Source: Dermatophilaceae bacterium Soc4.6 (GTDB lineage Bacteria; Actinomycetota; Actinomycetes; Actinomycetales; Dermatophilaceae). From it: DNA of 57,611 nucleotides. This document shows positions 192-47,030 of the stretch, piece after piece; the stretch's first letter is position 1; each line of letters starts with the position of its first letter. A program made the position numbers and the translations under genes. The stretch is from assembly GCA_039889245.1 (NCBI GenBank), contig JAZGVH010000003.1:1-57611 (forward strand), in the 5' to 3' direction. The notes beneath the pieces were generated by a model. That model was not told the DNA's origin, did not search any database, and worked only from the letters and a program-made list of their open reading frames with translations.

Positions 192-1685
192 ATGTCGACA
201 CACGCCCCTGGAGTTCTGCCCGACCACGTCAGCCGCGACGAACGAGCCAGCTCGTGGTTGATCTTCTGTGACCTCACGGTCGACTCGCCCGCGTCCGCGA
301 CCCTGCTGCCCGCGTGGCTGCAGACCGTCACCACCGCGGTGCAGACGCTCACGGCCGGGAGCTCGGACGGGACGGATGACGCGGATGGCGAGGGCAGTGT
401 CGGCGATATCCAGCCGGTCGCGACGTGCACTACGGCTTTTGGCAGGACCCTGATCGAGAAGGCGGGGCGGTCGTCGGTATTGCCCACCGGCCTGCTGCAG
501 CTGCCGGCGATCGGTGACGGGACTCTGGAGAACCACGACGTGCTGTTCTACGTGCTGTCGACCTCAGACGCCGCGGTCGCTCAGTTTCTGCGTGAGCTGC
601 AGGTGAGCCTCGCTGGCGCGGGTGTGGGGGGGCAGATCCGGTTCGAACGCGGCTATCAGCGGGCCGACAAGCACGAGACGTTCGGCCAGCGTGACGGGGT
701 TCGCAACATCGCGCCGGCTGACCGGGCGCTGGTGGCGTTCGTGGGGGAGGACCAGCCGGCCGAGCCGGCCTGGGCCGTAGGTGGCTCCTACCTGGCCTAT
801 CTGAAGATCCGTCAGGACGTCACCACCTGGACGGGGATGACCCCAGAGCGGCAGGCGCAGGTCATCGGGCGTCAGGCCGATGGCACCCGGGCCGACCTGC
901 CTGCTGGGACCGGCGTCCCCGCTGAGGGAGCGTTCGCGGCGGACACCACGGTGCCGGGGGTGACCTCGCACGTGCGCAAGGCTGGCCCCCGCGGGGGAGA
1001 GGGGCAGGACAGTGTGCGCATCTTCCGTCGCGGCACCCCCTACATCGAGAATGCCATCGGCGCCGACGGGGCACTCACAGGGCAGCTCGAGCAGGGCCTG
1101 CACTTCGTCAGCTACCAGGCCAACCTCGACGACTTCGACACCATCCTTAACCGGTGGATGCTCAACCCGAACTTCCCCACGGCTGTCGGTGGTGCTGCCC
1201 CCGGGGTGGACCAACTGTTCGACGCACCAAAGCTGGCCACCATCGTCAAGGGCGGGTTCTACTTCGCCGTCCCCACAGGTGGCCCCTACATCGGTGCCGG
1301 ACTGTTCAACGAGCCCGGGCACCACGCGCGGATCGCCGTCAAGCTCGTCGTCCAGAACACGGCTGGACAGGTTGTCCCCACCGCAGACCTACAGGGCGCC
1401 ACCTTCGACATCGCCACCGCGACCATCGAGGCCACGGCGGACGGCTCGTCCCCCGTCGCCACCGTCTTGGAAACCCTGGTCACCAACGCCTCTGGTCACG
1501 CCATCTCAGGGCCGCTGCTGCTTGACCCGTCGCTGACCGTCACCCAAACCAAGGCGCCTGCGGGTGCACTTATCGCCGACCCCGCCGTCCAGACCGTGCC
1601 ACTGACCTGTCGTTCGATCCAGGTCGAGTTCCGCGACAACCAAGACAGCTCGGGCGGACAGCCCCCCTACGGTGCACCCGCCTAG
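192..1685 (+). CDS. DyP-type (dye-decolourising) heme peroxidase
   Basis: A 497-residue DyP-type peroxidase, which uses heme and H2O2 to oxidise bulky aromatic substrates. The family's GxxDG motif appears as FGQRDG (residues 164-169; D168 is the expected catalytic acid). GGSYLAYLKIRQD follows near 197-209. The proximal heme ligand should be H260 in SHVRKAGPR, followed by IFRRGTPY (277-284) with the conserved arginine. The YQANLDDFDTILNRW block closes the core. About 150 further residues, rich in Ala/Val/Thr, extend past the usual DyP core and are unassigned. There is no obvious signal peptide, so a cytosolic or encapsulin-like location is possible. The ATG follows GAGAGG at good spacing. No partner gene such as encapsulin is seen beside it. 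Confidence 0.9.
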   Translation: MSTHAPGVLPDHVSRDERASSWLIFCDLTVDSPASATLLPAWLQTVTTAVQTLTAGSSDGTDDADGEGSVGDIQPVATCTTAFGRTLIEKAGRSSVLPTGLLQLPAIGDGTLENHDVLFYVLSTSDAAVAQFLRELQVSLAGAGVGGQIRFERGYQRADKHETFGQRDGVRNIAPADRALVAFVGEDQPAEPAWAVGGSYLAYLKIRQDVTTWTGMTPERQAQVIGRQADGTRADLPAGTGVPAEGAFAADTTVPGVTSHVRKAGPRGGEGQDSVRIFRRGTPYIENAIGADGALTGQLEQGLHFVSYQANLDDFDTILNRWMLNPNFPTAVGGAAPGVDQLFDAPKLATIVKGGFYFAVPTGGPYIGAGLFNEPGHHARIAVKLVVQNTAGQVVPTADLQGATFDIATATIEATADGSSPVATVLETLVTNASGHAISGPLLLDPSLTVTQTKAPAGALIADPAVQTVPLTCRSIQVEFRDNQDSSGGQPPYGAPA

Positions 1686-1827
1686 GGAAAGGCGAAGCGC
1701 TTGAGACAGGAGCGACCGTCATAGAGGGCCGTGCGGGAGGCCTGGCACCCGCAGAGACCAACCCCTGCCCACCGTCCGACCTCACACCCTCACCACCCAC
1801 CACCCTCACCACAATCAGGAGCATCAA

Positions 1828-2073
1828 ATGAGCCATGACAACCGCCGTCACGTTGTCCCCAACGACCAGGGGGGCTGGGACGTCGAAGCACCCGGTGCGT
1901 CCCGGGCCAGCGCGCACACCGACACCCAGGCCGACGCCATCGACCGGGCCCGTGAGATCGTCCACAACGCCGGCGGGGGAGAGGTCGTCATCCACGGCCG
2001 AGACGGACGCATCCGCGACTCCGACACCATCGCACCGGGCCACGACCCCCATCCTCCGCGCGACCGGAAGTAG
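1828..2073 (+). CDS. DUF2188 domain small protein
   Basis: An 81-residue protein matching DUF2188. It shows HVVPNDQGGWDVEAPGASRASAHTDTQ, then A.D.AREIV.N.GGGEVVIHGRDGRIRDSDTI, the usual two-part pattern in which a residue written from the user side is repeated in the second half. The family is a short, soluble stress-associated fold of unknown biochemistry. The ATG is preceded by AGGAGCATCAA. It lies 140 bp after the DyP gene on the same strand and could be cotranscribed with it. Length is normal for the family. Confidence 0.8.
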   Translation: MSHDNRRHVVPNDQGGWDVEAPGASRASAHTDTQADAIDRAREIVHNAGGGEVVIHGRDGRIRDSDTIAPGHDPHPPRDRK

Positions 2074-2121
2074 TCCCCGTTTCGTCGAACGTCCACGTCC
2101 AGAGATCCAGAGGTTCGAGAC

Positions 2122-2616
2122 ATGCTCGACACACCTGGCGCCGCCGTAGACCCGCGCGAGGGTAGGGAGCCGGACTACACGCTGGCTCTTGAGGAGGCCC
2201 GACGCTCATGGGACGCACTGAACGACGAGCTGTCCGCGTTACGGACCCGCACGATTCAGCTTGTAGGGATCGCGGGGGTCGCGGCGTCCGTGCTGGGGGG
2301 TATCGCCGCCACTGGAGCTCGACCATTGCGCTGGGAGAGCGGAGTCGGTCTCGTCGCGTTCCTAACCGTGGTCTTGCTGGCCTTTGCCGTCCTGTGGCCG
2401 CGCCGGCTGTCCACCTCGATCCAGCCGACAGTCCTGGTGAAGTGGGCCGAGCTCGCCAGCCCCGAGCAGGGAGTCAAGAACCTTGCGCTGTACCTGGGGG
2501 AGAAGTACGACGCCAACCGCAAGAAGATCAACGTCCTGACCACGCTGTTCTGCACAGGCCTCGGCGCCACGGGGGTCGAGGTTCTCGCCCTCACCGGCGC
2601 CCTGGCCAGGAGATGA
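2122..2616 (+). CDS. Small membrane protein with cytoplasmic N-terminal helix
   Basis: A 164-residue protein of unknown function. An acidic helix (residues 15-45, including DYTLALEEARRSWDALNDEL) precedes a hydrophobic segment near 48-65, a second near 73-92 ending in WPRR, and a third near the C-terminus (GLGATGVEVLALTGAL). A charged loop with GEKYDANRKKIN lies between the last two. The arrangement recalls small membrane effectors, but no diagnostic motif is visible and no nucleotide cyclase or other partner is nearby. The ATG follows GAGGTTCG. Its stop overlaps the next start in an ATGA, so the two are probably translated together. Confidence 0.65.
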   Translation: MLDTPGAAVDPREGREPDYTLALEEARRSWDALNDELSALRTRTIQLVGIAGVAASVLGGIAATGARPLRWESGVGLVAFLTVVLLAFAVLWPRRLSTSIQPTVLVKWAELASPEQGVKNLALYLGEKYDANRKKINVLTTLFCTGLGATGVEVLALTGALARR

Positions 2617-2789
2617 TTGCCATGCCGCAAACGCCGCCCCCGCCAGCGCCGCAACCTTCACCCCCGCCCCCAGCACCCCGACTACCGGACCCGTTCCGCG
2701 AGCCAGAACGACGCAACAACCCCCGGCCCGCGCCGCGGCGCGCTACCAACGCCGGTCCAAGTGGACGGAGCGCTGGCGAGCGGCTCTAG
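2613..2789 (+). CDS. Proline-rich 58-aa protein, coupled to upstream membrane protein
   Basis: A 58-residue protein, Pro-rich over the first half (MPQTPPPPAPQPSPPPPAP) and Arg/Asn-rich over the second. It has no recognisable domain and is probably disordered. Support comes mainly from the ATGA overlap with the preceding membrane protein gene and the AGGAG-like sequence just before it, which suggest coupled translation. It may be a tail partner of that membrane protein. It could also be a chance open frame in GC-rich DNA. Confidence 0.4.
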   Translation: MIAMPQTPPPPAPQPSPPPPAPRLPDPFREPERRNNPRPAPRRATNAGPSGRSAGERL

Positions 2790-2878
2790 ACGGGATCTCG
2801 GTGGGCTGAGTCGGTGTGCGCTGCGACCCGGCCCGAGCCGCTGAGCGCGAACGCTCTCGTGGTGACCGCCCGGTTGGG

Positions 2879-2998
2879 ATGGCCGCCAAGCCAGCGATGG
2901 CGGTCCACGACGGCATCTCCTACGACTTTGAGGTGCACGCCGACGCGCAGGGACCGAACGAGCTGGCCCAGCGCATCCAACGGCACTTTTTCGCGTAG
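2879..2998 (+). CDS. Possible 39-aa protein
   Basis: A short open frame encoding MAAKPAMAVHDGISYDFEVHA and then PNELAQRIQRHFFA. The second half reads like a compact beta-alpha unit rather than GC-biased noise, but there is no good ribosome binding site and no known family. A longer in-frame start exists at 2816. Reported because it is the only plausible coding segment between 2790 and 3401. Confidence 0.25.
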   Translation: MAAKPAMAVHDGISYDFEVHADAQGPNELAQRIQRHFFA

Positions 2999-3401
2999 AC
3001 CCGCGGCCCCGTGGAGGGACTGGTTTGCGGGAGGCATGCACGGCCTGACGCTGCACCCGCCCGCAGGACGACCGGGCGCGTAAGTCTTGCAGTTATCGGC
3101 GACATCGACGCTGAAGGTCCGGCCCGGAACACGACCGGGACGAGGCTACGATCCGCAAGCTTGTGAGTCCAAAGTCCGAGAAAACAAGCAGGCCACTAGC
3201 TAGATGGCGGATTCCGGCGGTTGTCGCATCACCTCGAGCAGGAGGCGGAGGAGAGGACGGCCGGTGGGGTGGTCACCGGGGCCGGCCGGGGAGTCGCGCC
3301 GAGGGGTCCTGACGAGGTCCTAGGACCGGGTGCGGCGGGGCCTCGACCTGTCGCAAGGTCACTCCCGGCTCACGCTGCTGGCCACCCGCACGACGTCGTC
3401 G
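2999..3401. other. Intergenic, no gene seen
   Basis: About 400 bases between the last plus-strand small frame and the 3' end of the minus-strand propeller gene. Open frames here lack a ribosome binding site and look like shadows. No convincing hairpin terminator or repeat was found. Confidence 0.4.
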
Positions 3402-4991
3402 TTAGCCGGGGAGGTGAAGGGTTCGGGTGGCGATGGACTGGGCGGGGGTGCGGATCCGGCCCTTCTGGTAGATGACTGTGGTGGCGTCGGCGCTGAGGTA
3501 GGCGCCAGCGGAGTAGTCGGGGAAGCGGATGACCTGGCCGGTGGCGACGACGTAGATGAACGCATAGTAGGCGCGGGAGTAGGTGTTGTACTGCTCGCCC
3601 CGTACGGGCGGGTTCATGATGCGGGAGGTGCTGAGGAAGGTGACGTAGCGCCCGTCGGGGGTCATGCTGCCCGCGGCGGAGCCGTTGTCGTGGTCGAGGC
3701 CCGAGGGGGTGCCGTGGTGGCGGGAGATTAGCCGGGTGGTGTGCCGGATCCGGTCGCGCAGGTAGACGTCTTCCCCGAACTGGCGGGTCAGCCCGTCGAG
3801 GCCGACCGCTTGGGCGGTGAACGTGACGTAGCGGCCGTTGTCGCTGACGTACGCGGAGGCGGTGTAACTGTTCCGGCCGAAGACGGGGTTGCGGTGCTGC
3901 TGGGTGCCGTCGTCGTCGACGGAAACCAGCTCAGTGGTGCCGGTGAGGCGGTCGTGCAGGAGCACGTCCTCGATGTGGTTATGGTCGCCTGGCACGAGGG
4001 CGTCTGAGAAGGAGGAGAAGGTGACGTAGCGCCCGTCGCCGGAGATGCCGAGGGACTGCCCGTCCTGCCCGCTGCTGTAGGGGCCTTGCCGGCCGGCGGT
4101 GGACACAGAGACCCGGGTGGTGGTCTGAGCGGTGAGGTCACGCACGTAGACGTCGTTGACCCCGTTGGTGTCCTTCGGCACGAGGGGGTCGGCACTGACG
4201 AATGCGACGTACCGGCCGTCAGCGCTGATCGCGGCCTCGGCGCTGCGGGTGCCGTACCTGCTGACCGACTCGCTGCCGTCGGCGGCGAGGTTGACGCGTT
4301 GGGTGGTGCCCGTGGCCCGATCGTAGGCGAACAGGTCCTCGGTGCGGTTGCGGTCGCCGCGAACGATGCTGGGCGAGACCGAGCAGAACAGGATGACGCG
4401 GCCGTTACGGGAGACGTTGGGGCACCCGGTGTCGTAGGTCGTGCCGCGCACGATGAGGTTGGTCTGGTCGTACGGTAAGTAGCGGTGGCCGCCGACCTCG
4501 TAGAACACGTCCCAGCCGACCAGGTCGGGGGTGATCAGATCGGTGCGGTCCGAGTCGTAGACCACGACCGACCCGTCGCCGCTGATGTTCGGATCCGATG
4601 CCTGGTAGGGCCCCGCCGTAGTGCCGAGGTTGTCTGGGGTGACGAACTGCGGCGGCCCAAACCAGCCCGTCCGCCTGGCCGGTGTCTCCTCGCTGGCTTG
4701 AGCTGTTCCGCTGGGCGCGGCCTGCACGGGGGTGGAGGCCACGCGTGGAGGCGAACCTGCCAAAAGCCCGGAGGCGGCCCGAGACACCAGGGGAGAGCTG
4801 CCGCCACCCCCGTCAATGTGGGGAGCGCTGGCTCGCCCCGGTCGCCCCGCCTGGAGCGCCGACACACCGGGGCCGGGTGTCGCGGCGGGCGCACCGGCTG
4901 ATCCGAGGACGGTCAGTACGACGGCTACCACCGCGGTCGCCGCCGTCTGGATGAAGCGACGAGGTCGCAGTCGTCGCGGAGCGTTACGCAT
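3402..4991 (-). CDS. Secreted WD40-like (PD40/TolB-type) beta-propeller protein
   Basis: A 529-residue exported protein. The start at 4991 is chosen because GGGAGGTG precedes that ATG at correct spacing and the signal peptide follows directly: a basic n-region (MRNAPRRLRPRRF), hydrophobic core AATAVVAVVLTVLGSAG, and an A-rich cleavage region. A longer frame reaches 5045 without a better site. After a Pro/Ser linker come at least six propeller blades of the PD40 type, each with an ISGDGRYVTFxS strand and a partner strand of the form DVYVRDLTAQTTTRVSV. The family folds into an extracellular propeller, usually for binding. It has no catalytic domain. The next gene upstream, also minus strand, encodes another secreted protein. 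Confidence 0.8.
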   Translation of the reverse strand: MRNAPRRLRPRRFIQTAATAVVAVVLTVLGSAGAPAATPGPGVSALQAGRPGRASAPHIDGGGGSSPLVSRAASGLLAGSPPRVASTPVQAAPSGTAQASEETPARRTGWFGPPQFVTPDNLGTTAGPYQASDPNISGDGSVVVYDSDRTDLITPDLVGWDVFYEVGGHRYLPYDQTNLIVRGTTYDTGCPNVSRNGRVILFCSVSPSIVRGDRNRTEDLFAYDRATGTTQRVNLAADGSESVSRYGTRSAEAAISADGRYVAFVSADPLVPKDTNGVNDVYVRDLTAQTTTRVSVSTAGRQGPYSSGQDGQSLGISGDGRYVTFSSFSDALVPGDHNHIEDVLLHDRLTGTTELVSVDDDGTQQHRNPVFGRNSYTASAYVSDNGRYVTFTAQAVGLDGLTRQFGEDVYLRDRIRHTTRLISRHHGTPSGLDHDNGSAAGSMTPDGRYVTFLSTSRIMNPPVRGEQYNTYSRAYYAFIYVVATGQVIRFPDYSAGAYLSADATTVIYQKGRIRTPAQSIATRTLHLPG

Positions 4992-5075
4992 GAGCAAGAA
5001 CACCTCCCTCGATCCGTTTGAGCCGAGGGTGGCACGCTTTGGCATCCCATCGTCGGTGTTCGCCGGGATCGGGGC

Positions 5076-6938
5076 TCAACTGGTGCTGAGAGTGACGAAG
5101 TCGATGATGCCGGCGAAGGAGTCCGCAGTGTTCTGGGAGTCGGGCTTTTTGCCGATGCTGAACTTCGACCCGTAGACCGACAGCGAGTGGTCGTTGGTGG
5201 GGGCGACCTCGTCCAGCCCGCTGGTGTTGGCGCCGGTGTTGGTCAAGGTTCCCTCGACTGTCTCCGACCGACTAAATAGTTGTGTGCCCACGTGTGTCTT
5301 GCCGGACACGGACAAGGAGATGTTGGCCTTGCCGTTACGGTCGGTGGCGCGGTGACAGTCGATGTCGTAGTAGGCGTCGACGTTGAGCAGGACCGAGTTG
5401 GTCGTGCTGGGCTTGCCGGTGTAAGCCTCGGCGAGTGTGCCGTTGGTGCTGTTGGCGTCGTCGTCCATAAAGACGCAGTGCACCGAGCCCTTCTGGAAGT
5501 TGCCGGTGGTGTAGCCCATGATCTCGATCTTGTAGAACCCGCCCGTGACCCCGTTGCGTCCCTTCTCGACGACGTTGTACGACGGGTGAAGTTGGTCGCA
5601 GCTGTTCGTACAGGTGGACGCGGCTGGGAGCTGGAAGTCGGTGGAGCCGCCGGTGCCGAAGTCGAGCAGGGTAGGCCGTAGGCGGGTGTGGATCCGCCAT
5701 CCCCCGAGTCCGGGATTCAGGGTCTGGGCGGCGTTGCTGGAGACGTCTGGCTGACCGTTCTTGTCATCGATGATCTGCCCATAGCCTGCCTCGAGCGGGT
5801 TGACCTCCGTCTTGAGCTTGTTCGCGGGGGCTGCGGCGGTGTGGCCGGTCCAGCCCGGAAACGTGTAGTAGTTCTTGGAGCGCTTCACGCACGTGTTAGT
5901 GGTGTTGCTGCCGGCGATGGTGCACGGTGGGGCGCAGACCCTACTGGTCGTGCAGGTCGCGGGGGTGATCGAGTTTGGGCCGGTGGGGTTGTCACTGTCG
6001 AGCATGGTGGTGCCGGTGTCGTTGAGGTTCCAGCACACGATGGTTCCCGAGCAGGTGGTGGCGGCGGTCGAGGCCAGGAGTGCCGGGGTGAGTGGTTGTC
6101 CTGCAGCGGTAGTGAGGACGTCGTCGCCTTGACTGGCCCAAGCGACCATGTTCGTGACGAGCTGGGTACCGTCGGTGGTGAGGTTGGTCAGGGCGCCGTC
6201 GGAGAAGCCGATGACGGCGCGGCGGGCCGGGGCGGTGGCGCCGCCGGTGAGGGCAGCGCCGGTCTCGAAGGTGAAGATGACGTTCTGAGAGGTGTTCTCT
6301 TGACGCACCGCGACGGGGGTGGCGCCGGTGGCGAGGTTGCCGACGACCATGGAGCGCATGGGTCGTGAGGTGGGGACGACCTGGACCGCGGTGGCGGGTA
6401 GCCAGGCCATGACGGGAACGGTGGTGTCGGCCCAGACCAAGGTGGTGGAGTCGGCGAAGATGCCGTCCTGATCGGTTAGGCCCATGTCGTCCCAGGCAGT
6501 CGACGCGAACACGATCTGGGGGACGCTGACGCTCTCGTACTTGTTCCCCAGGGCGGTACCCAGGGTCGAAGGGGCGATGAGGACCACGTCGGTGACGTTG
6601 ACCGCCGCTGTGACGACGGCGTCATCGTCGACGGCGGTGACGGTGTACCCGAGGTTCTGCAGGAGGGTCATGGCGGCGGTGTCTCCGGCGGTCAGCGCGG
6701 CGGGGTCACCGACGACGAGCTGGGCGGTGCCGAACCCGTCGGCATATGCGGGGGAGCCGGTCGCAACTGTCGCCACGGTTAGGGCCGCGACCGAGACACC
6801 GGTGGTGACCAGGCGGGTTAACCGGTTCCCGCGCCCACCACTGCGGCGACTCAGGAGGCTTCCCATGCGCAGGAAACCCGCGCGGGCCGCCGAATTTCTC
6901 AAAGTCGTCGTCCTAGCGTCCCCACGATTAAGTCGCAT
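5076..6938 (-). CDS. Secreted protein: ThuA/amidotransferase-like N domain plus LamG-like C domain
   Basis: About 620 residues. The start at 6938 has GGGAGAG at proper spacing. An internal ATG at 6866 lies nearer the signal peptide but has no ribosome binding site. The signal sequence has a long basic n-region, core LVTTGVSVAALTVATVATG, and SPAYADG cleavage. The N-terminal ~200 mature residues alternate Val-rich strands and loops (VVLIAPSTLG, IVFASTAWDDMG, RRAVIGFSDGALTNL), resembling secreted ThuA/glutamine-amidotransferase-like domains. A Cys-rich linker then leads to a beta-rich region (W..HTRLRPTLLDFG to FAGIIDFVTLSTS) with the look of a concanavalin/LamG fold. Paired cysteines suggest disulfides. 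The substrate is unknown. It is transcribed toward the propeller gene. Confidence 0.65.
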   Translation of the reverse strand: MRLNRGDARTTTLRNSAARAGFLRMGSLLSRRSGGRGNRLTRLVTTGVSVAALTVATVATGSPAYADGFGTAQLVVGDPAALTAGDTAAMTLLQNLGYTVTAVDDDAVVTAAVNVTDVVLIAPSTLGTALGNKYESVSVPQIVFASTAWDDMGLTDQDGIFADSTTLVWADTTVPVMAWLPATAVQVVPTSRPMRSMVVGNLATGATPVAVRQENTSQNVIFTFETGAALTGGATAPARRAVIGFSDGALTNLTTDGTQLVTNMVAWASQGDDVLTTAAGQPLTPALLASTAATTCSGTIVCWNLNDTGTTMLDSDNPTGPNSITPATCTTSRVCAPPCTIAGSNTTNTCVKRSKNYYTFPGWTGHTAAAPANKLKTEVNPLEAGYGQIIDDKNGQPDVSSNAAQTLNPGLGGWRIHTRLRPTLLDFGTGGSTDFQLPAASTCTNSCDQLHPSYNVVEKGRNGVTGGFYKIEIMGYTTGNFQKGSVHCVFMDDDANSTNGTLAEAYTGKPSTTNSVLLNVDAYYDIDCHRATDRNGKANISLSVSGKTHVGTQLFSRSETVEGTLTNTGANTSGLDEVAPTNDHSLSVYGSKFSIGKKPDSQNTADSFAGIIDFVTLSTS

Positions 6939-7086
6939 ACCCACACTCTCCCTGCCCAGCGAACGGTCATTTTCCCTGCCAGGAAAGTGAGGCAAAAGTA
7001 GCAGGCCCGACCTCAACGCACCGGGTTCAATCTGTGTTTTCAATCTCCGTTTCAGTGAAAAACAAGGGCACTTTGTTCCGTGTCCG

Positions 7087-7422
7087 GTGTCGTCGAACCG
7101 GGCGGTGCTGCTGTCGATACGGGCCGCCGGAGAGGGCCGGGTCATCACGGTCAGCAGCGTCGGGGGACTGGTCGGCCAACCCTTCGCCGACGCCTACTGC
7201 GAAGCGAAGTTCGCCGTCGAGGGCCTGATGCAGTCGCTGGCCCCGGTCATAGCCCGCTATGGCGTGAACGTCAGCATCGTGGAGCCGGCCGCCGTCAGCA
7301 GCGCCTTCGTGGCCAACACCGGTGTCTTGGACTTCGATCTGAACGGCCAGGACGGCTCGGGCGACCAGCACCACCTGCACCGCACGTTGCAGGCCGCCTA
7401 CCTCCGACGCAGCGCGGCTTAG
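7087..7422 (+). pseudogene. Short-chain dehydrogenase (SDR) fragment, 5' truncated
   Basis: Encodes the C-terminal half of a classical SDR. GEGRVITVSSVGGLVGQPF holds the active-site Ser region, and YCEAKFAVEGL carries the catalytic YxxxK with an unusual C at position 2. It continues with GVNVSIVEPAAVSSAFVAN. The NAD(P)-binding TGxxxGxG motif and NAG strand are absent. Homology starts abruptly at about 7096 (NRAVLLSI), and the preceding bases belong to the intergenic region upstream of the secreted-protein gene. It is a remnant left by a rearrangement, probably inactive. Downstream it ends 40 bp from the 3' end of the RES gene. Confidence 0.75.
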
Positions 7423-7461
7423 TGGAACTCCGGGCTGGGACCGGCTTTGCTGGGTGTGTAC

Positions 7462-15075: not shown

Positions 15076-15460
15076 AGAGGGTCATGAACAGCATGCCCGA
15101 CTCGATCAGCCGCGTGGGCCATCTCGAAAATCGTCTTGTCGAGCCAGGCCCGCCGCGAGGTCGCCAGCAGCACGTTGTCCAGCGTGGCGTCGTACGCGGC
15201 CTGGAGCCCGGGCAGCTCGAACCGCTGCTGGGCCAGCACTGCTCGTGGGCGCCGATCCAGGCTGTCCCGCCCGACCATAGGATGCCCTGGCGAAGCAGGC
15301 GCTTGGAGGTGCGGTGCCAGCCGCGCATCAGGTCGGCGCGCACGTCCTCCCGCACGCGTACCAGGTCACGGGCGGCTTCCTGGGCCAGCGACGGGACCGT
15401 GACCGCCGTGATCTCCCCAAGCGCAGCAACCGGGCCAGCAGCAGCGCATCCCGCGCGTCG

Positions 15461-15468
15461 GTCTTGAC
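15461..15468. repeat. Target site duplication, left copy (GTCTTGAC)
   Basis: Eight bases immediately outside the left 24-bp terminal repeat. They are identical to 16565-16572 outside the right terminal repeat and are present once in the reconstructed IS110 gene. Confidence 0.85.
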
Positions 15469-15632
15469 GGCTCTTGGGACCTGAGGTGGGAGAGGCACCC
15501 GTCGGAGCGCAGGGCAAGACTCTCGGTGTAGGGAGTGACCAGGATCTGAACCCCGAGGACGATGACCAGGCCCACGCCGTCCTGTATGCGCCGCCCGGCC
15601 GAGTTTGGACTTTAGCTCGACACACGTTCTCT

Positions 15633-15746
15633 GGCGGTACGTTGAGGAGATGTCTGATCACCTTGACGGTCGGCATTCAGCGTCGCTGCGACGGCGGCGA
15701 TGTCGTGAGGGCGGTACGTTGAGGAGATGTCTGATCACCTTGACGG
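15633..15746. repeat. Two 37-bp direct repeats spanning the phosphotransferase start
   Basis: Positions 15633-15669 and 15710-15746 are identical over 37 bases. Both contain a TTGAGGAG ribosome binding site and an ATGTCTGATCACC start. The spacing is 77 bp, so the first copy opens a different, short frame. Only the second copy (ATG at 15727) reads into the phosphotransferase. The upstream copy would give a decoy start on the same transcript. Confidence 0.8.
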
Positions 15747-16437
15747 GGGGTATCGGAGTGCGGCGCGGCGACACGGCGACTTCGTCCATCGTGGGGCCAC
15801 CTCGCCTTACGCGGTCGAGCTGCTGGGTTTCCTGACGGCCCACGAATGGCCCTACAGCCCGGCCCTGATCTCCAACACGGCACAAGCCTCCGTGCTGGCC
15901 TACCTGGACGGCACGGCGGCCATCACCCCCGAGCAGCGCGTCGCAGCATCCGAAGATGCGGCCCTGGCCTCGATCGCTCGGATCGTGCGCGAGCTGCACG
16001 ACCTCACTGCCGGGACCGGGCTTGCGAGGGGCGGTGAGGTCGCCTGCCACAACGACCTCGATCCGCGCAACACGATCTACGACTGCAACGACAACCTCTT
16101 GGTTCCGGTCGGGCTCATCGACTGGGACCTGGCCAGCCCCGGGAGGCGGGTGCACGATCTCGCTCACCTCTGCTGGACCTTCACGGGGATCAACCCCACT
16201 GCGGATCCCGACCTCGTCAGGCACCGGCTCCACGTCTGCACAGAGGCCTACGGATGGACCGGAACGCAAGACGAAGTCGTCAGCGCCATGCTGTGGTGGC
16301 AGGACCGCTGCCACCAAGGCATCCGCGCCGAAGCCGACGCCGGCGACCGCGCGATGCAGGCCTTGGTCGTCGACGGCGTCATGGACGCTGTCCGCCGTGA
16401 CTACGACTGGACCCTCAAGTACCTCCGTCCCCGGTGA
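15727..16437 (+). CDS. APH/choline-kinase-like phosphotransferase
   Basis: A 236-residue member of the aminoglycoside phosphotransferase-like kinase superfamily. The catalytic loop is CHNDLDPRN (about H108, D110, N115) and the metal-binding DFG-equivalent is LIDWDLASPGRRVHDLAH (D132 or D134). The Brenner-type HxDxxxxN pattern is complete. The N-terminal lobe is short (RRHGDFVHRGATSPYAVELLGFL), without an obvious P-loop lysine motif, similar to short uncharacterised actinobacterial APH-family proteins rather than known resistance enzymes. The substrate is unknown; resistance should not be assumed. GAGGAG lies just before the ATG. It is the only clear gene inside the ISL3-like element. Confidence 0.8.
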   Translation: MSDHLDGGYRSAARRHGDFVHRGATSPYAVELLGFLTAHEWPYSPALISNTAQASVLAYLDGTAAITPEQRVAASEDAALASIARIVRELHDLTAGTGLARGGEVACHNDLDPRNTIYDCNDNLLVPVGLIDWDLASPGRRVHDLAHLCWTFTGINPTADPDLVRHRLHVCTEAYGWTGTQDEVVSAMLWWQDRCHQGIRAEADAGDRAMQALVVDGVMDAVRRDYDWTLKYLRPR

Positions 16438-16463
16438 TCGGCGAGGTCCCCGGAACGTCCTTG

Positions 16464-16489
16464 GGGGCGGCAGGTTTTGTTGTCGCCCC
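16464..16489 (+). terminator. Hairpin downstream of the phosphotransferase
   Basis: GGGGCGGCA pairs with TGTCGCCCC (one G-T wobble) around the loop GGTTTTGT, 27 bases after the stop codon. There is no strong T-run, so termination may be incomplete. Confidence 0.45.
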
Positions 16490-16564
16490 TGATCCTTGCG
16501 GACTCTGACGGCCTTCGTAGCGCTTGGCGTGTCCCCCCGGCTCCCACCTCAGGTCCCAAGAGCC

Positions 16565-16572
16565 GTCTTGAC
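16565..16572. repeat. Target site duplication, right copy (GTCTTGAC)
   Basis: Right-hand partner of 15461-15468. The IS110 reading frame continues from here into the N-terminal half. Confidence 0.85.
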
Positions 16573-16963
16573 CCGGTCACCCGAGGGGCGGTGCATCTTC
16601 GACGGCGCCGCGACCACGCACCTGGTCCCCTACCGGTCAGGAACCGGGCCAGCCCGTAGCCCGTCGGGCCAGCCTCGTAGACCGCCGCCACCGGGGCCCG
16701 GGAAGGCCTGCAGCCAGGCCAGGACCGTCTCGTTGCCCGGCACCAGCCGGGCCTTGCTCAGCTCGCCGTCCTGTCGTCCAAACCGCACGCCACCACCGAG
16801 CGTGCACATCAAGGCCGACGAACGTACGCTCAATCTCCACCGGAACCTCCCGCAATTATTGGCTCTACCACCGGACTCAACCCGGGACGGCAACCCACGA
16901 CAACTTGCGAGTAAGGTCCCGGCCCAAGAACCGGGCACCTCCATACTGTCTAGAAACGAGTCG

Positions 16964-17322: not shown

Positions 17323-20300
17323 CTAGAAGCAATTCGTCAATTCCGCATAACTGGTTCCTAAGGCCGTGACCCCTGCGCCTATCACAAGCAGAGAGCCCCC
17401 GAAAGTCTCAGGTGAGGCAAGCACGGCCCCTGCAAAAAGAAACGCAGCACCAACGAAATAAAACGTGGTCTCTATACAGTCTTCGCCGGTTGGGTCAATT
17501 GCGTTGACGGGATTGTTGGCCGTGTATGCGTAGGGGTTGGCATTAGAGGGTTTGGCTAGCCGGGTAATGGGGTCGATGGATGTCCATCTGCCGGTGGTGG
17601 TGTCGTGGTAGCGGGCGCCGTGGTGGACCCAGCTGGTGGAGGGGTCGACGGTGCCGAAGGTGTACCCGTAGGGGTTGGTGTTGATGGCGGTGGTGGCGGT
17701 GGTGCCGGCGATGTTGGTGGTGGCGGTGGTGGCTCCGTAGGGGTCGTAGGTGTAGGTCGCGAGCAGGGTACCGCCGGAGTCTTGGGAGAGTAGGGCGACG
17801 ACGGAGCCGTGGCCGTCGGTGGCGTAGAAGTCGTCCTGTCCGGTGGCCAGGTGCATCTCTTGTGCGGTGCCGGTGGTGGGGTCGTTGGTCAGGTAGGCGG
17901 TGGCGCCGTTCTTGGTCACCGACGACAGCACGGGCACCCCTTGGGGGGAGGTGAGCCCGTAGGAGTAGTCCCAGGTGGTCCCCATCGGTGGTGAGACCTC
18001 GTGGGTCAGCTCGGACTGTCCGGTCCCGGCGTAGGCGTAGGTCGTGCCGGAGCCGCGGGTGTCCAGCTGACCAGCCTTGTTGTACGTCAGGGACCCGGCG
18101 GACGGGTCGGAGGTCAGGTTCCCCGCGGCGTCGTAGCCGTACCCCGTGGTGGTGAGCTGGTTCGAGGCGGTGTTCACCGTCAGGGTTTGGGTGGTGGTCC
18201 CGTCGACCTTGACGCTGGTGCGGTTGCCGTTGACGTCGTACCCGTACTGGTAGTGGTGGCCGCCCATGTCGGGGGCGGCGTCGATCAGCCGGTTCCCCGC
18301 GTCGTAGGTGTAGACCGTCCGCTCGAGGGTGCGGTTGTCGAACGTGTACTGCACCAGGCCCGTGTCGCTGGCGGACGGTGCGGACGTGGCCTGGTTGGGG
18401 CAGCCCACCCCGGGAACGTACTTGGCGTAGCAGTAGCCGGTGTCGAACACCCGCGCCGTGGTGGCGTCGCTGGAGTTCTTCGAGGTCCACGTCTTGGCGA
18501 CCCGCCCGGTCCGGTCGTAGTCGGTGTGCGCGTGCGCGGTGAACGCGGTCGGCCGGTAGGGCGCGCTCGAGGCGGGCGGGCCCGCCCGCCAGTACGTGTC
18601 GGTCCGTTTCCCGACCCCGTCGTAGAAGTAGTAGCTGGGCAGGCTGCTGGGGCCGGTGTACGAGGCCAGCTGGTTCGCGTCGTCGTAGGTGTAGGTGGTG
18701 GTGCCGAACCCGTTCGTGGCGGAGGTCAGGTTCCCGTTGGCGTCGAAGCCGTACCCCACAACGACCCCGGCGCCGTCGGTGCGCGCGGTCAGCCGGTTCA
18801 GCCCGTCATAGCCGGTGGTGGTGGTCCCGGTGCCATCGACCCGCTTGCTCAGGTTCCCCGCAGTGTCGTAGGTGTAGGCGACCGTGGTCACCCCCGCGAG
18901 GCCGGACCCACCACCGGAGTAGGCGACCGAGGTCACCCGGTCCAGGTCGTCGTAGCTGTATGTGGTGACCGCGCCGCGACCGTCGGTGACGGTGGCCAGC
19001 CGGCCGTACCCGTCATAGGTCAGCCCGGTCGCGCCCAGGCCCGACCCGGACGGGGGCGTGATCCCCGTGACCTGGTGGCTGGGGGCGTCCTCGGTGTAGG
19101 TGGTGACCTTCCCCGCCGGCGACGTCGACGACTTCAGCGTGCCGTCACCGTTGTACGTGACCGACGCGGTCGCCGCCAACGCGGTGTTCCCGCCCGACAG
19201 GGAGTTCCCGAAGCCGTCGTACATCAGGGTCGAGGCGTTGCTCTGAGCGTCGGTGCCTCCGGAGGGCAGGTACTGGCTGGCGCCGGTCCCGCCGTACGAC
19301 AGCGACGACGAGCCGCCGGTGGCGCTTCCGACGGAGGTCAGGGACTCCCCCGAGTTCACGCTCGAGGTGTGCCCGAAGGTGGTCGTGTTCTGGGTCCCGG
19401 TGACCGCGCTGCTGGAGGAGGTGGCCACGTCCCCGAACGAGGTGTACGTGGCCGACCGGGACCGGCCGAGGGCGTCGGTGACACTGGCCACCCGCTCCGT
19501 CGCGTCGAGGGTGTACGTGGTGTGCGGGACCGACGAGACGGCCCCGGCACCGTTGGTGGTCGGGTCCGCGACCAGGGTCTGGGTGGACGAGGGGTAGGTG
19601 AACCGGGTCTTCGCGTTCGCCCCGCCAGCGTTGGTCCGCAGCACCGACATCACGCGGTGGCTGCCGTCGTAGGTGAGGGTGGTGGACTGCCCACCGGGGT
19701 TGGTGATCGAGGTCAGGTCGTCCCCGCCCGCGGCCGGGGTGTACCCGAACGTGGTCGACCGGCCGCCGGTGTCCGTGATGCCGGTCAGGTTCCCACTGGT
19801 GTAGGAGTACGTCACCGCCCGTGACCCCGACGTGTCGTTGTCCTGGGTGATTGTCTTCAGCCGGCCGTTCGCGTCGTAGGTGAACTTCGCCTTCCGCGAC
19901 GAGCTCCCACTGGCCGGCCCGGACCGGGTCGAGGTGATCGTGGCCAGCTGGCCTGCGGTCCACGTGAACGTCGTGGCCTGGCTGTTGCGGTCGGTGATCG
20001 TGAGCAGCCGCCCACTGCTGGCGAACGCCAACGTCTCGTTGCTGGTGTGGTCGCGGACGCTGAACCCGGTGCTGGCCGTGCCGAGCAGGGTCGCCTTGAG
20101 GCCTACCGGGGCGGTGTACCCGCCCCCGGCCTTGGGGGTGAACGTGCCCTGGAACCCGTCGGGGCCGTAGTACGCCACCGACCCGTCCGTGTTGGCGTTG
20201 ATGAACGTGCTGTACCCGACCCGGTCGGTCCACTCCCCCGCCACCCCGGCCGGGCTGCCGGACGCACCGACCAGGAGCGAGTTGAACGCGAGCCCCAGCT

Positions 20301-20652
20301 GCAGGTCGTGCGCGATCCCCGGCAGCTTCAGGTCCGACGTCAGGACAGACAGGTTCCCGGTCCCGACATCGACCGTCGCATCGATCCGGTCACCGACGGG
20401 GAAGTCGACCCGGGTCGCGTTAGCCCGCAACCCGACCAGGTACGTCGAGGTGTCCGCGGCGAACGCCGGAACCGACTGAACCACCGTCATCCCCACGGCC
20501 GCCGCAACCGTGACCGCCATCGGCACTCCCAGACGACGCACCAAACCCAACGCACCACCACGACCTCGACCACGGCCGCGACCATGAAACCCGCTACCAG
20601 TCATCTGACGAACCAGAACTTCGGCTCCACCCTGCCCCGTAACCTGCGTCAT
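17323..20652 (-). CDS. Secreted RHS/YD-repeat protein with very short hydrophobic tip
   Basis: 1109 residues. A Gly/Arg-rich n-region precedes a signal segment (LGVPMAVTVAAAVGMTVVQSVPAFAAD). A beta-rich N-terminal domain follows, then more than fifteen YD repeats (forms such as TTTYTYDDANQLASYTG and NGNRTSVKVDG). The RHS core is GARYHDTTTGRWTSIDP, then ANPYAYTANNPVNAIDPTG. Only 53 residues follow the DPTG junction. They contain two hydrophobic stretches (FYFVGAAFLFAGAVLA and GGSLLVIGAGVTALG) and two cysteines. RHS proteins form a shell that encloses a C-terminal toxin. Here the tip is far shorter than usual enzyme domains and may act on membranes. The immunity-like membrane protein gene overlaps its 3' end signal. 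Confidence 0.85.
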   Translation of the reverse strand: MTQVTGQGGAEVLVRQMTGSGFHGRGRGRGRGGALGLVRRLGVPMAVTVAAAVGMTVVQSVPAFAADTSTYLVGLRANATRVDFPVGDRIDATVDVGTGNLSVLTSDLKLPGIAHDLQLGLAFNSLLVGASGSPAGVAGEWTDRVGYSTFINANTDGSVAYYGPDGFQGTFTPKAGGGYTAPVGLKATLLGTASTGFSVRDHTSNETLAFASSGRLLTITDRNSQATTFTWTAGQLATITSTRSGPASGSSSRKAKFTYDANGRLKTITQDNDTSGSRAVTYSYTSGNLTGITDTGGRSTTFGYTPAAGGDDLTSITNPGGQSTTLTYDGSHRVMSVLRTNAGGANAKTRFTYPSSTQTLVADPTTNGAGAVSSVPHTTYTLDATERVASVTDALGRSRSATYTSFGDVATSSSSAVTGTQNTTTFGHTSSVNSGESLTSVGSATGGSSSLSYGGTGASQYLPSGGTDAQSNASTLMYDGFGNSLSGGNTALAATASVTYNGDGTLKSSTSPAGKVTTYTEDAPSHQVTGITPPSGSGLGATGLTYDGYGRLATVTDGRGAVTTYSYDDLDRVTSVAYSGGGSGLAGVTTVAYTYDTAGNLSKRVDGTGTTTTGYDGLNRLTARTDGAGVVVGYGFDANGNLTSATNGFGTTTYTYDDANQLASYTGPSSLPSYYFYDGVGKRTDTYWRAGPPASSAPYRPTAFTAHAHTDYDRTGRVAKTWTSKNSSDATTARVFDTGYCYAKYVPGVGCPNQATSAPSASDTGLVQYTFDNRTLERTVYTYDAGNRLIDAAPDMGGHHYQYGYDVNGNRTSVKVDGTTTQTLTVNTASNQLTTTGYGYDAAGNLTSDPSAGSLTYNKAGQLDTRGSGTTYAYAGTGQSELTHEVSPPMGTTWDYSYGLTSPQGVPVLSSVTKNGATAYLTNDPTTGTAQEMHLATGQDDFYATDGHGSVVALLSQDSGGTLLATYTYDPYGATTATTNIAGTTATTAINTNPYGYTFGTVDPSTSWVHHGARYHDTTTGRWTSIDPITRLAKPSNANPYAYTANNPVNAIDPTGEDCIETTFYFVGAAFLFAGAVLASPETFGGSLLVIGAGVTALGTSYAELTNCF

Positions 20653-43348: not shown

Positions 43349-45198
43349 GCCGGTGCTCCTTCCTCAACAGCCTGGGTGTGGATGGTCGTGACGCGATCAC
43401 GAGACGCCCCGGGTAGGTCGCGGGTGACGCGCCGGGTCTGGCGGGGGGAGTCGGGGTCGGCCTCGAACAGTCCCGGGATCGGCGGCATCGCGGGCCAGTC
43501 CGGGCGGGGTGAGTGCACCGACTCCCGCTCCGTCGCGGTGCACCCGGCGAACACCCCATCGCCGGCGGTCAAGGCCCGTAGGTGGGGGTCGAAGTGGTGC
43601 AGCCACCACGACGAGATCGCCGGGGCCGGCTGCAGCCGCATTGCCTCGAACGCCTCCCACAGCGCCTCGAGTCGGCCGACCGCTTCGGGGTGCTTCCACC
43701 ACTGCCGGCACCACCGCACGCCCGCCCCCGACCCGTGCCGCCAGTTCGGCAGCACGAACCCCTCGACGAACGCCTCCACCCCGGAGAAGAACGGCACCAC
43801 CACCACCGCCTCGCCCGTGGGCCCCGCCTCGGCCGAGGCCGACCCCGCCGACGTCGCCTGCGCGGCGGACCGGCCGGGCCCGCCGGCGAGGTGGGATGGC
43901 TGCCCATCGTTGAGCCGGGCCGCGGGGTCATCCTCGGCGGTGGCCAGGGCCTGCCGGGCTGCGGCCAGCCGCACCCGGGCCGCGATCACCATGGATGGTT
44001 CCAGCGCCGGCGCTTGTCTGGCCGCGGCGAGAGCCTCCTCCGCGGCGGCCAACGCCACCTCTGCAGCCGCCCGGGTCTCCTCCGCGACGACCAGCTCCTC
44101 GCGGGCCGCGGCCAGGACCCGTTCCTGCCGGCGACGCCTTGCCCACGACCGCGATCCCCGCCGCGCGGAGTCCGCGTCGGGCTCGGCTTTGGCCGTGGTG
44201 ACGACTGCGGACTCAGTGGTGAGGACCTCGAGCTCGTCCGCGGCGTCGTCGACGGCGTCGCGAGCGGTGGCCACGGCCCGGGACAGCTGCTCCGCCCGCT
44301 CCCGTGCCACGACCACGGCGGCGGCCGCGACGCGGACCCCACCGGTCGGGGCGGCCGCGGACGCCTCCGCCAGCACCGCCACCGCGACTTCGACCTCCCC
44401 CCGCGCAGTCTCCACCGACGCACTTCCCGCGGTCTGGCTTCGGGGTGCACCTACGCCGGGCCCTGGTCGGCGTCCCTCCAGCTGCGACACCCGCGACCCG
44501 GCACCCCCAGCACCGGCACCAGCGCCGGCACCATCGGGCGGTCCGGCCCGTCCTCGCGTACTGCGCATCGTGGTCCCCTTCCGGGTGCTTTCGGTTGCTG
44601 TTGTTGCTGATTGGGTTGGTGTCGTGCCCTGGCGGGGGGGTGCCGGGCGGTCTAACCCGGTGACGTGGCGGTCGGCAAGCCGACGGCCGGCGTTGTACGC
44701 CGCCAACGCGTTCTGCTCGGCCGTCCCCCGACCGATCCGTCCCGCGGTCATCAGGTCGGTCACCTGGGCGAACAAGGCGCACATCAACCGACCCTGTGAC
44801 GGGATCGCGTCACCCGGGTTCCAGACATCGGCGACCTGGTCACCGGTGAAGTCCGCACCCCACGCCGACCACGTGCCAGGCATGAACTGCGCGATCCCCT
44901 GGGCACCGGCCGGAGAGCCCGCGCGCGGGTTCCACCCCGACTCCTGCTCGACCTGCGCGGCGATCAACGGCGCCGACTCCCCCGCACACATCGACCCCGC
45001 CTGCACTACCAACGCCACATAGTCTGGCGGCACCACCGCTGTGTTCAGCTCGTCCCCGCCCGGCCCCCCACCACCAGGTCCAGGTCCGCCGCCGGAGCGC
45101 GCCGCCGCCGTCGCCACCTGCGACGTCCCGCCGGTCGTGACCGCCAGCACCGGCATGAGCAGCAGCAGCACACCAAACACCCCCGCACCCCACTTCAC
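43345..45198 (-). CDS. Lytic transglycosylase (SLT) fused to a DUF4913 domain
   Basis: 617 residues from GTG 45198 (GTGA overlap with the upstream stop). One membrane anchor (WGAGVFGVLLLLMPVLAVTTGG) precedes an SLT domain: AAQVEQESGWNPRAGSPAGA and QGIAQFMPGTW, with catalytic Glu in EQESGW and final AAYNAG. This would cut peptidoglycan glycan strands for a conjugation channel. With no stop, the frame continues through a Gly-rich linker, a long Ala/Glu coiled-coil-like region and a DUF4913 domain (FVEGFVLPNWRHGSGAGVRW, then CRQWWKHPEAVGRLEALWEA), common on actinobacterial plasmids. An internal ATG at 44568, with GGAAGGGG before it, could start DUF4913 as a separate cytoplasmic product. Its stop overlaps the primase start (ATGA). 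Confidence 0.75.
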   Translation of the reverse strand: MKWGAGVFGVLLLLMPVLAVTTGGTSQVATAAARSGGGPGPGGGGPGGDELNTAVVPPDYVALVVQAGSMCAGESAPLIAAQVEQESGWNPRAGSPAGAQGIAQFMPGTWSAWGADFTGDQVADVWNPGDAIPSQGRLMCALFAQVTDLMTAGRIGRGTAEQNALAAYNAGRRLADRHVTGLDRPAPPRQGTTPTQSATTATESTRKGTTMRSTRGRAGPPDGAGAGAGAGGAGSRVSQLEGRRPGPGVGAPRSQTAGSASVETARGEVEVAVAVLAEASAAAPTGGVRVAAAAVVVARERAEQLSRAVATARDAVDDAADELEVLTTESAVVTTAKAEPDADSARRGSRSWARRRRQERVLAAAREELVVAEETRAAAEVALAAAEEALAAARQAPALEPSMVIAARVRLAAARQALATAEDDPAARLNDGQPSHLAGGPGRSAAQATSAGSASAEAGPTGEAVVVVPFFSGVEAFVEGFVLPNWRHGSGAGVRWCRQWWKHPEAVGRLEALWEAFEAMRLQPAPAISSWWLHHFDPHLRALTAGDGVFAGCTATERESVHSPRPDWPAMPPIPGLFEADPDSPRQTRRVTRDLPGASRDRVTTIHTQAVEEGAPA

Positions 45199-47030
45199 CG
45201 TCCGCCACCACCGCCCGTATCTGCAGCCAGCGCCGGCACCACATCCAGCGCTGGCACCGCGTACAGCGACGTTGCCGGCCCGTCCTGTGCCACCACCAAC
45301 GCCACCCCGACCCCACCCGATGGGTGGACTGGTCCAGAACCTGCCGGATGGGACGGCGGCCACGCCACGACCGCGACCGGCGGGACAGGCGGGACCGCTG
45401 ACGCCAAGGTCCCCCCAGCACGCGGGGTGCCGGACCGAAGACGACCGTCCGGCCCGACCGTGACGACCGACCCCTCGGTCGTGCCGAACGCCCCGCCCGG
45501 CCCCACACAGGACGTAACCCAGTCGCCCGGGAGCCGGTGCACCCCACCCGTGCGCAGGTCAAGGACGCTCGACCCGTAGATCCCCCAGTCCCCGTCCGGC
45601 GCCACCGCGACTGCACCAGTCACGACCCCCGACCCCTGTGACCCCACCCCACCAACCCCACCCGCGGACGACACCGGCACCACCGGTGAGGTCCACACCG
45701 GCACCCAGGAACCCGACCCACTTCCCTCACCAGCAGACGCCACCCCAGCGCGGAACGCCCGCAACACCACCCGGCCAGCAGCACCGCCAGCCAGAGTTCT
45801 GGTGCGCTGGGGGGTGAAGGCGGCGACGAGCACGTCGTCGACGACCGCTACTGGACCCGACCACACGCTCCCCGCCGGACTGGGCAACGGGGTCCCTTCC
45901 CCCGCGACCGACGCCGAGGACACCACCCACACCCGGCCCCCGCCCGCAGCCAGCACCATCCCCTCAGCGGACGACGACGTCGTCGACGTCGTCCCGGTCG
46001 TCCCCAAGCTGGCCGTCACTCCGACGACGGCTGCGCCAGCGGGCAGGACCCGAGAGATCCAGCCAGAGCCGGTTAGGACCTGCAGATGCTGACCCGGGCC
46101 CATGGCGACCACCCCGGACCCGGCACCCCCTCCCACAGCGACCACCAGCATCCCCACCGTTGGAAGCGCCCACCGGGCACAAACCTCTCCCGTCAAGGCC
46201 GCGAGGACCACCACCTGCGATGAGGTCCACACCACCATTCGCCGCCGTCCCCCGATAACCACGACCACCGGCCCACCCGTGAATGTGTCCCCCACCGCAC
46301 GAGACCAGCGCACGCGGCCCGTGGCGACGTCCACAGCCTGCACGACCTTCCGGTCTGCAGACGGCACCCACACCAGACCGCCTCCGGTCGCTACCTCTGC
46401 AGTTCCCGGCGTCCTCGAGCCGACCAGGGCAGACCCCAGCGGCATCGGAACCGACCACAGAGCCACTCGGGAATACCCAGCCGGGGGAGCAACAGGCAGC
46501 TGCACTCGGGCCCGTGCCAGCAGCGGTGCTGACACACCTACCGACGCAGCTGAGCCAACACGGCGGGTTGCCGCCCATGACAGACCCCCTACGGCCCCAG
46601 CAGACAGCGCCGCGATGCCCATCAGGGACAGCAGTTGTCGACGACTCGCTCTCGCCCCTCGTTGACGCTGAGGCGACTTGTCTAACGGGAGCAAGACGCC
46701 GTCGATGGTCACAGCGACGACGTGCGGCTCAGCCTGCGGACCGTCCTCGAAGCCAGACAGGATCGCCCGTACCGCACCGCAGGGACGCCCGGCCGCCACG
46801 TGGGCAGCTCGACTCACCAGGTGAGCAATGACCTCGGTCCGGGTGCCGGCAAACACCGTCTGGCCATCTACCAGGCCCTGCACCCACCCGTCATCGTCAG
46901 GCTCGTCCTCGGGTGGCTGAGATTTCAGCACCGAGGGGATGGTCTCGATGGTCAACCGGACCACCGGGTAAGAGGGCACGCCGGCCGCAGCGGCGTCGAG
47001 ATCTTCCGACACCTCCACACCGCCTGTCAT
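45195..47030 (-). CDS. Membrane-anchored PQQ-like beta-propeller protein
   Basis: About 611 residues; start ATG 47030 with AGGTGGCG before it (the frame is open to 47129). The N-terminal ~125 residues are cytoplasmic, including a Pro/Asp-rich patch and HLVSRAAHVAAGRPCGAVRA. One membrane helix (RRQLLSLMGIAALSAGAVGG) precedes an external part built of PQQ-like blades (VWVPSADRKVVQAVDVATGR, then VRWSRA; VVWTSSQVVVLAALTGEV), rich in Gly/Val/Ser. Such propellers bind partners rather than catalyse. It is first in an operon with the transglycosylase and primase genes, so a cell-envelope scaffold in DNA transfer is plausible. Confidence 0.7.
   Translation of the reverse strand: MTGGVEVSEDLDAAAAGVPSYPVVRLTIETIPSVLKSQPPEDEPDDDGWVQGLVDGQTVFAGTRTEVIAHLVSRAAHVAAGRPCGAVRAILSGFEDGPQAEPHVVAVTIDGVLLPLDKSPQRQRGARASRRQLLSLMGIAALSAGAVGGLSWAATRRVGSAASVGVSAPLLARARVQLPVAPPAGYSRVALWSVPMPLGSALVGSRTPGTAEVATGGGLVWVPSADRKVVQAVDVATGRVRWSRAVGDTFTGGPVVVVIGGRRRMVVWTSSQVVVLAALTGEVCARWALPTVGMLVVAVGGGAGSGVVAMGPGQHLQVLTGSGWISRVLPAGAAVVGVTASLGTTGTTSTTSSSAEGMVLAAGGGRVWVVSSASVAGEGTPLPSPAGSVWSGPVAVVDDVLVAAFTPQRTRTLAGGAAGRVVLRAFRAGVASAGEGSGSGSWVPVWTSPVVPVSSAGGVGGVGSQGSGVVTGAVAVAPDGDWGIYGSSVLDLRTGGVHRLPGDWVTSCVGPGGAFGTTEGSVVTVGPDGRLRSGTPRAGGTLASAVPPVPPVAVVAWPPSHPAGSGPVHPSGGVGVALVVAQDGPATSLYAVPALDVVPALAADTGGGGGR

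Follow-up and report, generated by a model that had tools for sequence, protein, structure and literature searches.

A kinase-like gene enclosed by two ISL3-type ends, with no transposase between them, interrupts a decayed IS110 gene in the window (the whole 57,611-bp contig analyzed here). This unit is reasonably likely to be a non-autonomous ISL3 derivative of the mobile insertion cassette kind, in which the kinase gene traveled between the ends into IS110 by means of a trans-acting transposase. The contig encodes relaxase-domain, DnaG-like primase/toprim, and transglycosylase-domain proteins, a gene content that makes a plasmid the probable identity; its two termini share no overlap of 11-200 bases.

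The element and its IS110 target

The element occupies window positions 15469-16564 (1096 bp) and is bounded by perfect 24-bp inverted repeats, both complete (15469-15492 versus 16541-16564). The octamer GTCTTGAC stands at 15461-15468 and again at 16565-16572, forming an 8-bp target site duplication. Both the perfect repeats and the exact duplication had been described in a first-pass annotation of this DNA, and both were confirmed. The features of the region are as follows:

15117-15460, minus strand: interrupted IS110 transposase gene, distal part, decayed (plasmid record matches)
15461-15468, unstranded: left copy of the target site duplication, GTCTTGAC (sequence; empty site in two IS110 records)
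15469-15492, plus strand: left 24-bp terminal inverted repeat, transposase-end side (IRR) by exclusion (sequence comparison)
15493-15726, plus strand: leader, with direct repeat (repeat search, ISL3 comparison)
15727-16437, plus strand: kinase-like gene, 236 aa, Pfam APH (PF01636) (profile match, alignment with relatives)
16438-16525, unstranded: spacer 3' of the kinase gene (ISL3 comparison)
16526-16564, minus strand: right end, transposase-start side (IRL), consisting of the 24-bp repeat (16541-16564) and 15 bp of this ISL3 lineage's subterminal block, GACACGCC (ISL3 comparison)
16565-16572, unstranded: right copy of the target site duplication, GTCTTGAC (sequence)
16573-16899, minus strand: interrupted IS110 transposase gene, proximal part, decayed (plasmid record matches)

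A repeat search recovered the ends as a 33-bp inverted pair (94% complementary) that extends past the ends into the duplication. Allowing up to 3 mismatches, the only sites of the 24-mer in the window are the two ends, compared with a mean of 0.00 in 100 shuffles, and the chance of a perfect 8-bp match, given the ends, is approximately 4^-8.

The right flank (16565-16900) matches 27 plasmid records and the left flank (15080-15468) matches 29; on either side, seven of the eight matches listed are IS110 family transposases and the eighth is without annotation at the matched place. The plasmid records that match IS110 are actinobacterial, and three of them (NZ_CP093381, CP128997, and NZ_CP038257) are common to both flanks among the matches listed. 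In NZ_CP093381, the left flank corresponds to 141399-141700 and the right flank to 141693-142034, while the places in CP128997 are 44790-45091 and 45084-45425, such that in each record the two matches overlap by exactly 8 bp. Judged from these alignments, the overlap is the empty insertion site, and together with the flank matches it bears out the earlier proposal that IS110 was the interrupted target. Both records are from Rhodococcus opacus and may represent non-independent copies of one element. The best flank places in NZ_CP038257 are in different copies on opposite strands and are uninformative on the empty site. The IS110 gene in the window is decayed, with its pieces in different frames (by eye), and the two flank ORFs scanned against Pfam gave no match. 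Two further ORFs on the minus strand accompany the IS110 copy: one with tyrosine recombinase domains (PF00589, PF02899; 13934-15676), which overlaps and adjoins it, and one of 1109 aa (17323-20652), which lies beside it and has an RHS/YD-repeat-like translation (by eye).

ISL3 relatives of the ends and the kinase cargo

The assignment of the ends to the ISL3 family, made in the first-pass annotation, now has the backing of ISL3 remains in three other genomes and of a 39-bp match. A genome from the same family (G027) contains a 611-bp element (C1:3209534-3210144) with 24-bp ends identical to those in the window, an 8-bp duplication of its own (CCATATCC), and an ORF matching DDE_Tnp_ISL3 (E 1.2e-20). 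It looks like an ISL3 element that has lost internal transposase sequence, and no kinase match was found in that genome. The first-pass annotation had named further copies of such ends, flanked by other 8-bp duplications, as supporting evidence; the G027 element supplies one, but with ISL3 remains between the ends and not a kinase. In Humibacillus xanthopallidus (G375), three of the four copies of the end (up to 3 mismatches) adjoin ISL3 transposase fragments, one (C3:905292) at the transposase start and two (C2:881548 and C2:887369) at the C-terminal part; the fourth (C1:905432) has no transposase match beside it, and its first 41 bp are 90% identical to the other end of the G027 element. An end in a further genome (G401, C1:71582) likewise adjoins an ISL3 transposase start.

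Read inward, the right end in the window is 92% identical over 39 bp to the end at the transposase start in both the G027 element and the G375 C3 element, and the block GACACGCC directly inside the right end is common to all three. The left end is common to ISL3 relatives over the 24-bp repeat only. On this comparison of sequences, the ends are of ISL3 descent. Seven of eight compared ISL3 elements, all selected for having a duplication and including that of G027, begin with GGCTCTT, and the remaining one begins with GGCTCAT. When 23 ISL3 or end-bearing loci were scanned for ends plus duplication, 6 had such a pair; the rest may be truncated, beyond the size limits of the scan, or broken. A transposase frame of 447-495 aa (stop to stop) is present in all compared elements except the G027 derivative, and the ends closest to those in the window among them (18-20 of 24 positions) belong to L055 (1487 bp) and L054 (3446 bp). 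The expectation of a full-length ISL3 element with the same ends was supported in part, in that such ends occur at ISL3 fragments (three of four in Humibacillus and the one in G401), but a search of the host and of the relatives sampled found no complete ISL3 element with the exact ends seen in the window. The L054 element (3993-7438; G394 C111) has perfect 24-bp ends and the duplication CGGATAGG, and is approximately 2 kb longer than its kin.

A tblastn search with seven ISL3 transposases (E up to 1) found no transposase inside the element, in agreement with the first-pass annotation, and gave two weak matches elsewhere in the window (E 0.68 and 0.91). Because no DDE_Tnp_ISL3 was found inside, the unit is not an autonomous ISL3 element and can be placed as a derivative only. 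No ISL3 match was found in the leader (15493-15726) or the spacer (16438-16525), and scanning the element for promoter and terminator consensus sequences gave no match.

The only clear gene in the element is, as previously described, APH-like: positions 15727-16437 encode 236 aa matching Pfam APH (PF01636) at 39.9 bits against a cut-off of 23.2. Its alignment contains the kinase motifs HNDLDPRNT and IDWDLA (of the HxDLxPxNT and DWDLA type; HxDxxPxN and DxD-type), which we take to have a catalytic role in the kinase. The kinase is full length, aligning end to end with nine of the ten relatives examined; the tenth (L101) is shortened by the chosen start codon. The best near-full-length relatives are approximately 44% identical and come from other families of the class. 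Kinase matches occur in 33 of 394 class genomes, the host included (E 1e-12), and one partial match reaches 53%. Searches at E 0.001 matched no NCBIfam family and no PDB sequence, leaving a role in aminoglycoside resistance unsupported. The gene is presumed to be expressed and its product to phosphorylate some target. A direct repeat (15633-15676 and 15710-15753; 93%, 77-bp spacing) spans a GAGGAG stretch and the first codons of the kinase, such that a duplicate of the gene start lies 77 bp upstream.

Further copies, transposase supply, and rival explanations

The 24-mer was found with up to 3 mismatches in 3 of 58 relatives, 2 of 347 order genomes, and 4 of 186 family genomes, and with up to 2 mismatches in 1 of 394 class genomes, this being the window's own copy; the four genome sets overlap. 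Amongst the family genomes with the end sequence, a pair occurs only in the host and G027. The reversed control pattern gave one match, in the order set, in a genome other than the end-bearing G039. The end in G039 (3 mismatches) was taken as chance, since there was no ISL3 transposase match within 1500 bases (E 1e-3) and the reversed control also gave a match. In a species-level collection, which may leave out the host or near genomes, the exact 24-mer was found in two stretches, both from Humibacillus xanthopallidus DSM 21776, and viral contigs contained no exact match.

Neither the host genome nor the relatives sampled yielded another copy of the unit with the kinase, and a protein search of the host with the kinase returned the window copy only; a 57-bp match to the end of the kinase (79%) lies elsewhere in the host at C2:534521. 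Beyond the window, 63 kinase matches were listed (25 from one search and 38 from the class search), 44 of them with loci. None of the 44 loci has ISL3-like ends and an exact 8-bp duplication around the kinase within flanks of up to 1500 bases, a span that could miss larger units, and a few of these loci overlap. An inverted pair with an 8-bp match near the kinase relative L076 was attributed to chance, with only 14 of 24 positions in agreement, unlike ISL3. When compared with plasmids, the whole element gave one partial match (Nonomuraea, 17% of the query). Six Sinorhizobium plasmid records matching the 39-bp right end (E 0.5) were also taken as chance, five of the six matches being inside a hydrolase gene.

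Apart from the window, the host matches the 24-mer (up to 3 mismatches) at one place only, a solo end (C2:1429362-1429385), which resembles the right end in the window over 38 bp (87%; C2:1429348-1429385) and is probably a trace of the same ISL3 lineage; no ISL3 transposase match was found within the surrounding 19 kb. Weaker sites were not used, because a 17-mer scan of the host genome gave 9 matches versus 15 in the reversed control. Approximately 100 bases from this solo end, an 8-bp unit, CCGGCAGT, is repeated many times in tandem (L005, 1190-1420; by eye). The host genome has nine DDE_Tnp_ISL3 matches, several of which are pieces, and the sole complete element with a duplication in the five chromosomal stretches scanned (L030; 1436 bp, 454-aa frame) has GGCTCTTCACA ends. 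No host ISL3 element with ends like those in the window was found; to move in trans where it now resides, the unit would require a transposase tolerant of other ends or an arriving ISL3 element. Two different host ISL3 transposase genes, in L032 (C2:1397000-1407000) and L031 (C2:1800000-1815000), each contain a 3.8-kb segment, 99.5% identical between them, that encodes two tyrosine recombinases (382 and 667 aa) and a DUF6262 protein, a trio presumed to be Tn554-like. The segment sits at the same conserved transposase site in both, after PTEAI and RSEGY (by eye), and in L032 the trio enlarges an ISL3 element to 5.2 kb (1122-6299) with a perfect 8-bp duplication, AGCAAACC.

Under the preferred explanation, both 24-bp ISL3 ends and 15 more bases at the transposase-start end would have been retained while the remaining ISL3 interior, transposase included, was replaced by a complete APH-fold kinase gene and its leader. 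The unit, with the kinase already between its ends, would then have been inserted into the contig's IS110 copy by an ISL3 transposase that acted on both ends in trans, leaving the 8-bp duplication. Alternatively, an ordinary transposase-bearing ISL3 element may have entered IS110 and later had its interior swapped for the kinase by recombination in place, making the unit a mosaic relic whose kinase never jumped. This account is somewhat unlikely, and stays a rival since a single copy of the unit is known; no complete cognate ISL3 element that could have moved it was found in the host genome, and a late replacement could leave the same pattern of ISL3 homology, with the match confined to the 24-bp repeat at the left end and reaching 15 bp further inward at the right end. 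However, a late swap would need two joints very near both ends, with the perfect repeats and the duplication left intact.

Self-movement of an element carrying both transposase and passenger, which later lost only the transposase by deletion, has a published precedent in the passenger-bearing ISL3 elements ISPst2a/b, as given in an excerpt of PMC6305408. Such a history is quite improbable here, as no transposase trace was found inside the element and none of the 44 kinase loci has ISL3-like ends around a transposase plus a kinase. An inverted repeat arisen by chance, or an element of some other family that makes 8-bp duplications, might have been entertained before the ISL3 assignment was checked against sequence, and now deserves almost no credence: none of the 100 shuffles gave such sites, identical ends surround ISL3 transposase remains, and the G027 and G375 elements refute this reading. 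Movement of the kinase between ISL3 ends is the simplest account, under which the unit could have spread the kinase gene and could still be mobile. A more far-reaching version, which is rather doubtful, holds that this is a functional plasmid-borne ISL3 cassette with a putative small-molecule kinase, moved in trans by host ISL3 transposases of other lineages, and that ISL3 elements have thereby spread accessory genes lacking a transposase.

Comparison with known cassettes and passenger-bearing elements

Mobile insertion cassettes hold a gene unrelated to transposition between IS ends, and the unit fits this description (IS ends around a non-transposition gene, no transposase). The unit, whose limits are well set by exact ends, duplication, and empty site, links a foreign gene on a relaxase-bearing contig to one ISL3 lineage, and its exact end sequence is now available for finding more such units. 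Cargo-only units with IS ends are easily missed in annotation because they lack a transposase, and one copy of this unit has been seen in samples of one genome per species. Among the matches listed in the openly licensed literature, no transposase-less ISL3 cassette was found in titles or the starts of abstracts. Should the unit prove mobile, the ISL3 family would be added to those IS groups able to carry genes in trans.

The unit resembles a mobile insertion cassette, an already described kind. MIC231-type cassettes, which we assume to belong to the IS231/IS4 group, share with the unit the lack of a transposase and differ from it in that the ends here are ISL3, the cargo is a kinase, and movement in trans is what we infer. 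According to an excerpt of PMC3129680, a mobile insertion cassette is without its own transposase and could be activated by a cognate one. Amongst ISL3 elements, the nearest likeness is the 611-bp G027 derivative, which has identical 24-bp ends and an 8-bp duplication and is likewise non-autonomous, but has an internal transposase deletion and no cargo. In the excerpted part of PMC6305408, ISArsp7 (ISL3 family, 1451 bp) has ends GGCTCTTCGCG and duplication CCTTTGCC; its GGCTCTT ends, listed as 24 bp, and its 8-bp duplication are as in the unit, whereas the unit has no transposase and carries a kinase. The same excerpt gives ISPst2a/b (2985 bp) as having a permease and an ArsR-family gene as passengers, making these ISL3 elements with passenger genes and 8-bp duplications like the unit, although they keep their own transposase and their ends begin GGGTATCC/GGGTATAC. 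As described in an excerpt of PMC5444012, the qnrS2 mobile insertion cassette of the Aeromonas plasmid pAC3 is similarly a plasmid cassette within a gene that carries accessory cargo, differing from the unit in its ends and in its cargo, a known resistance gene.
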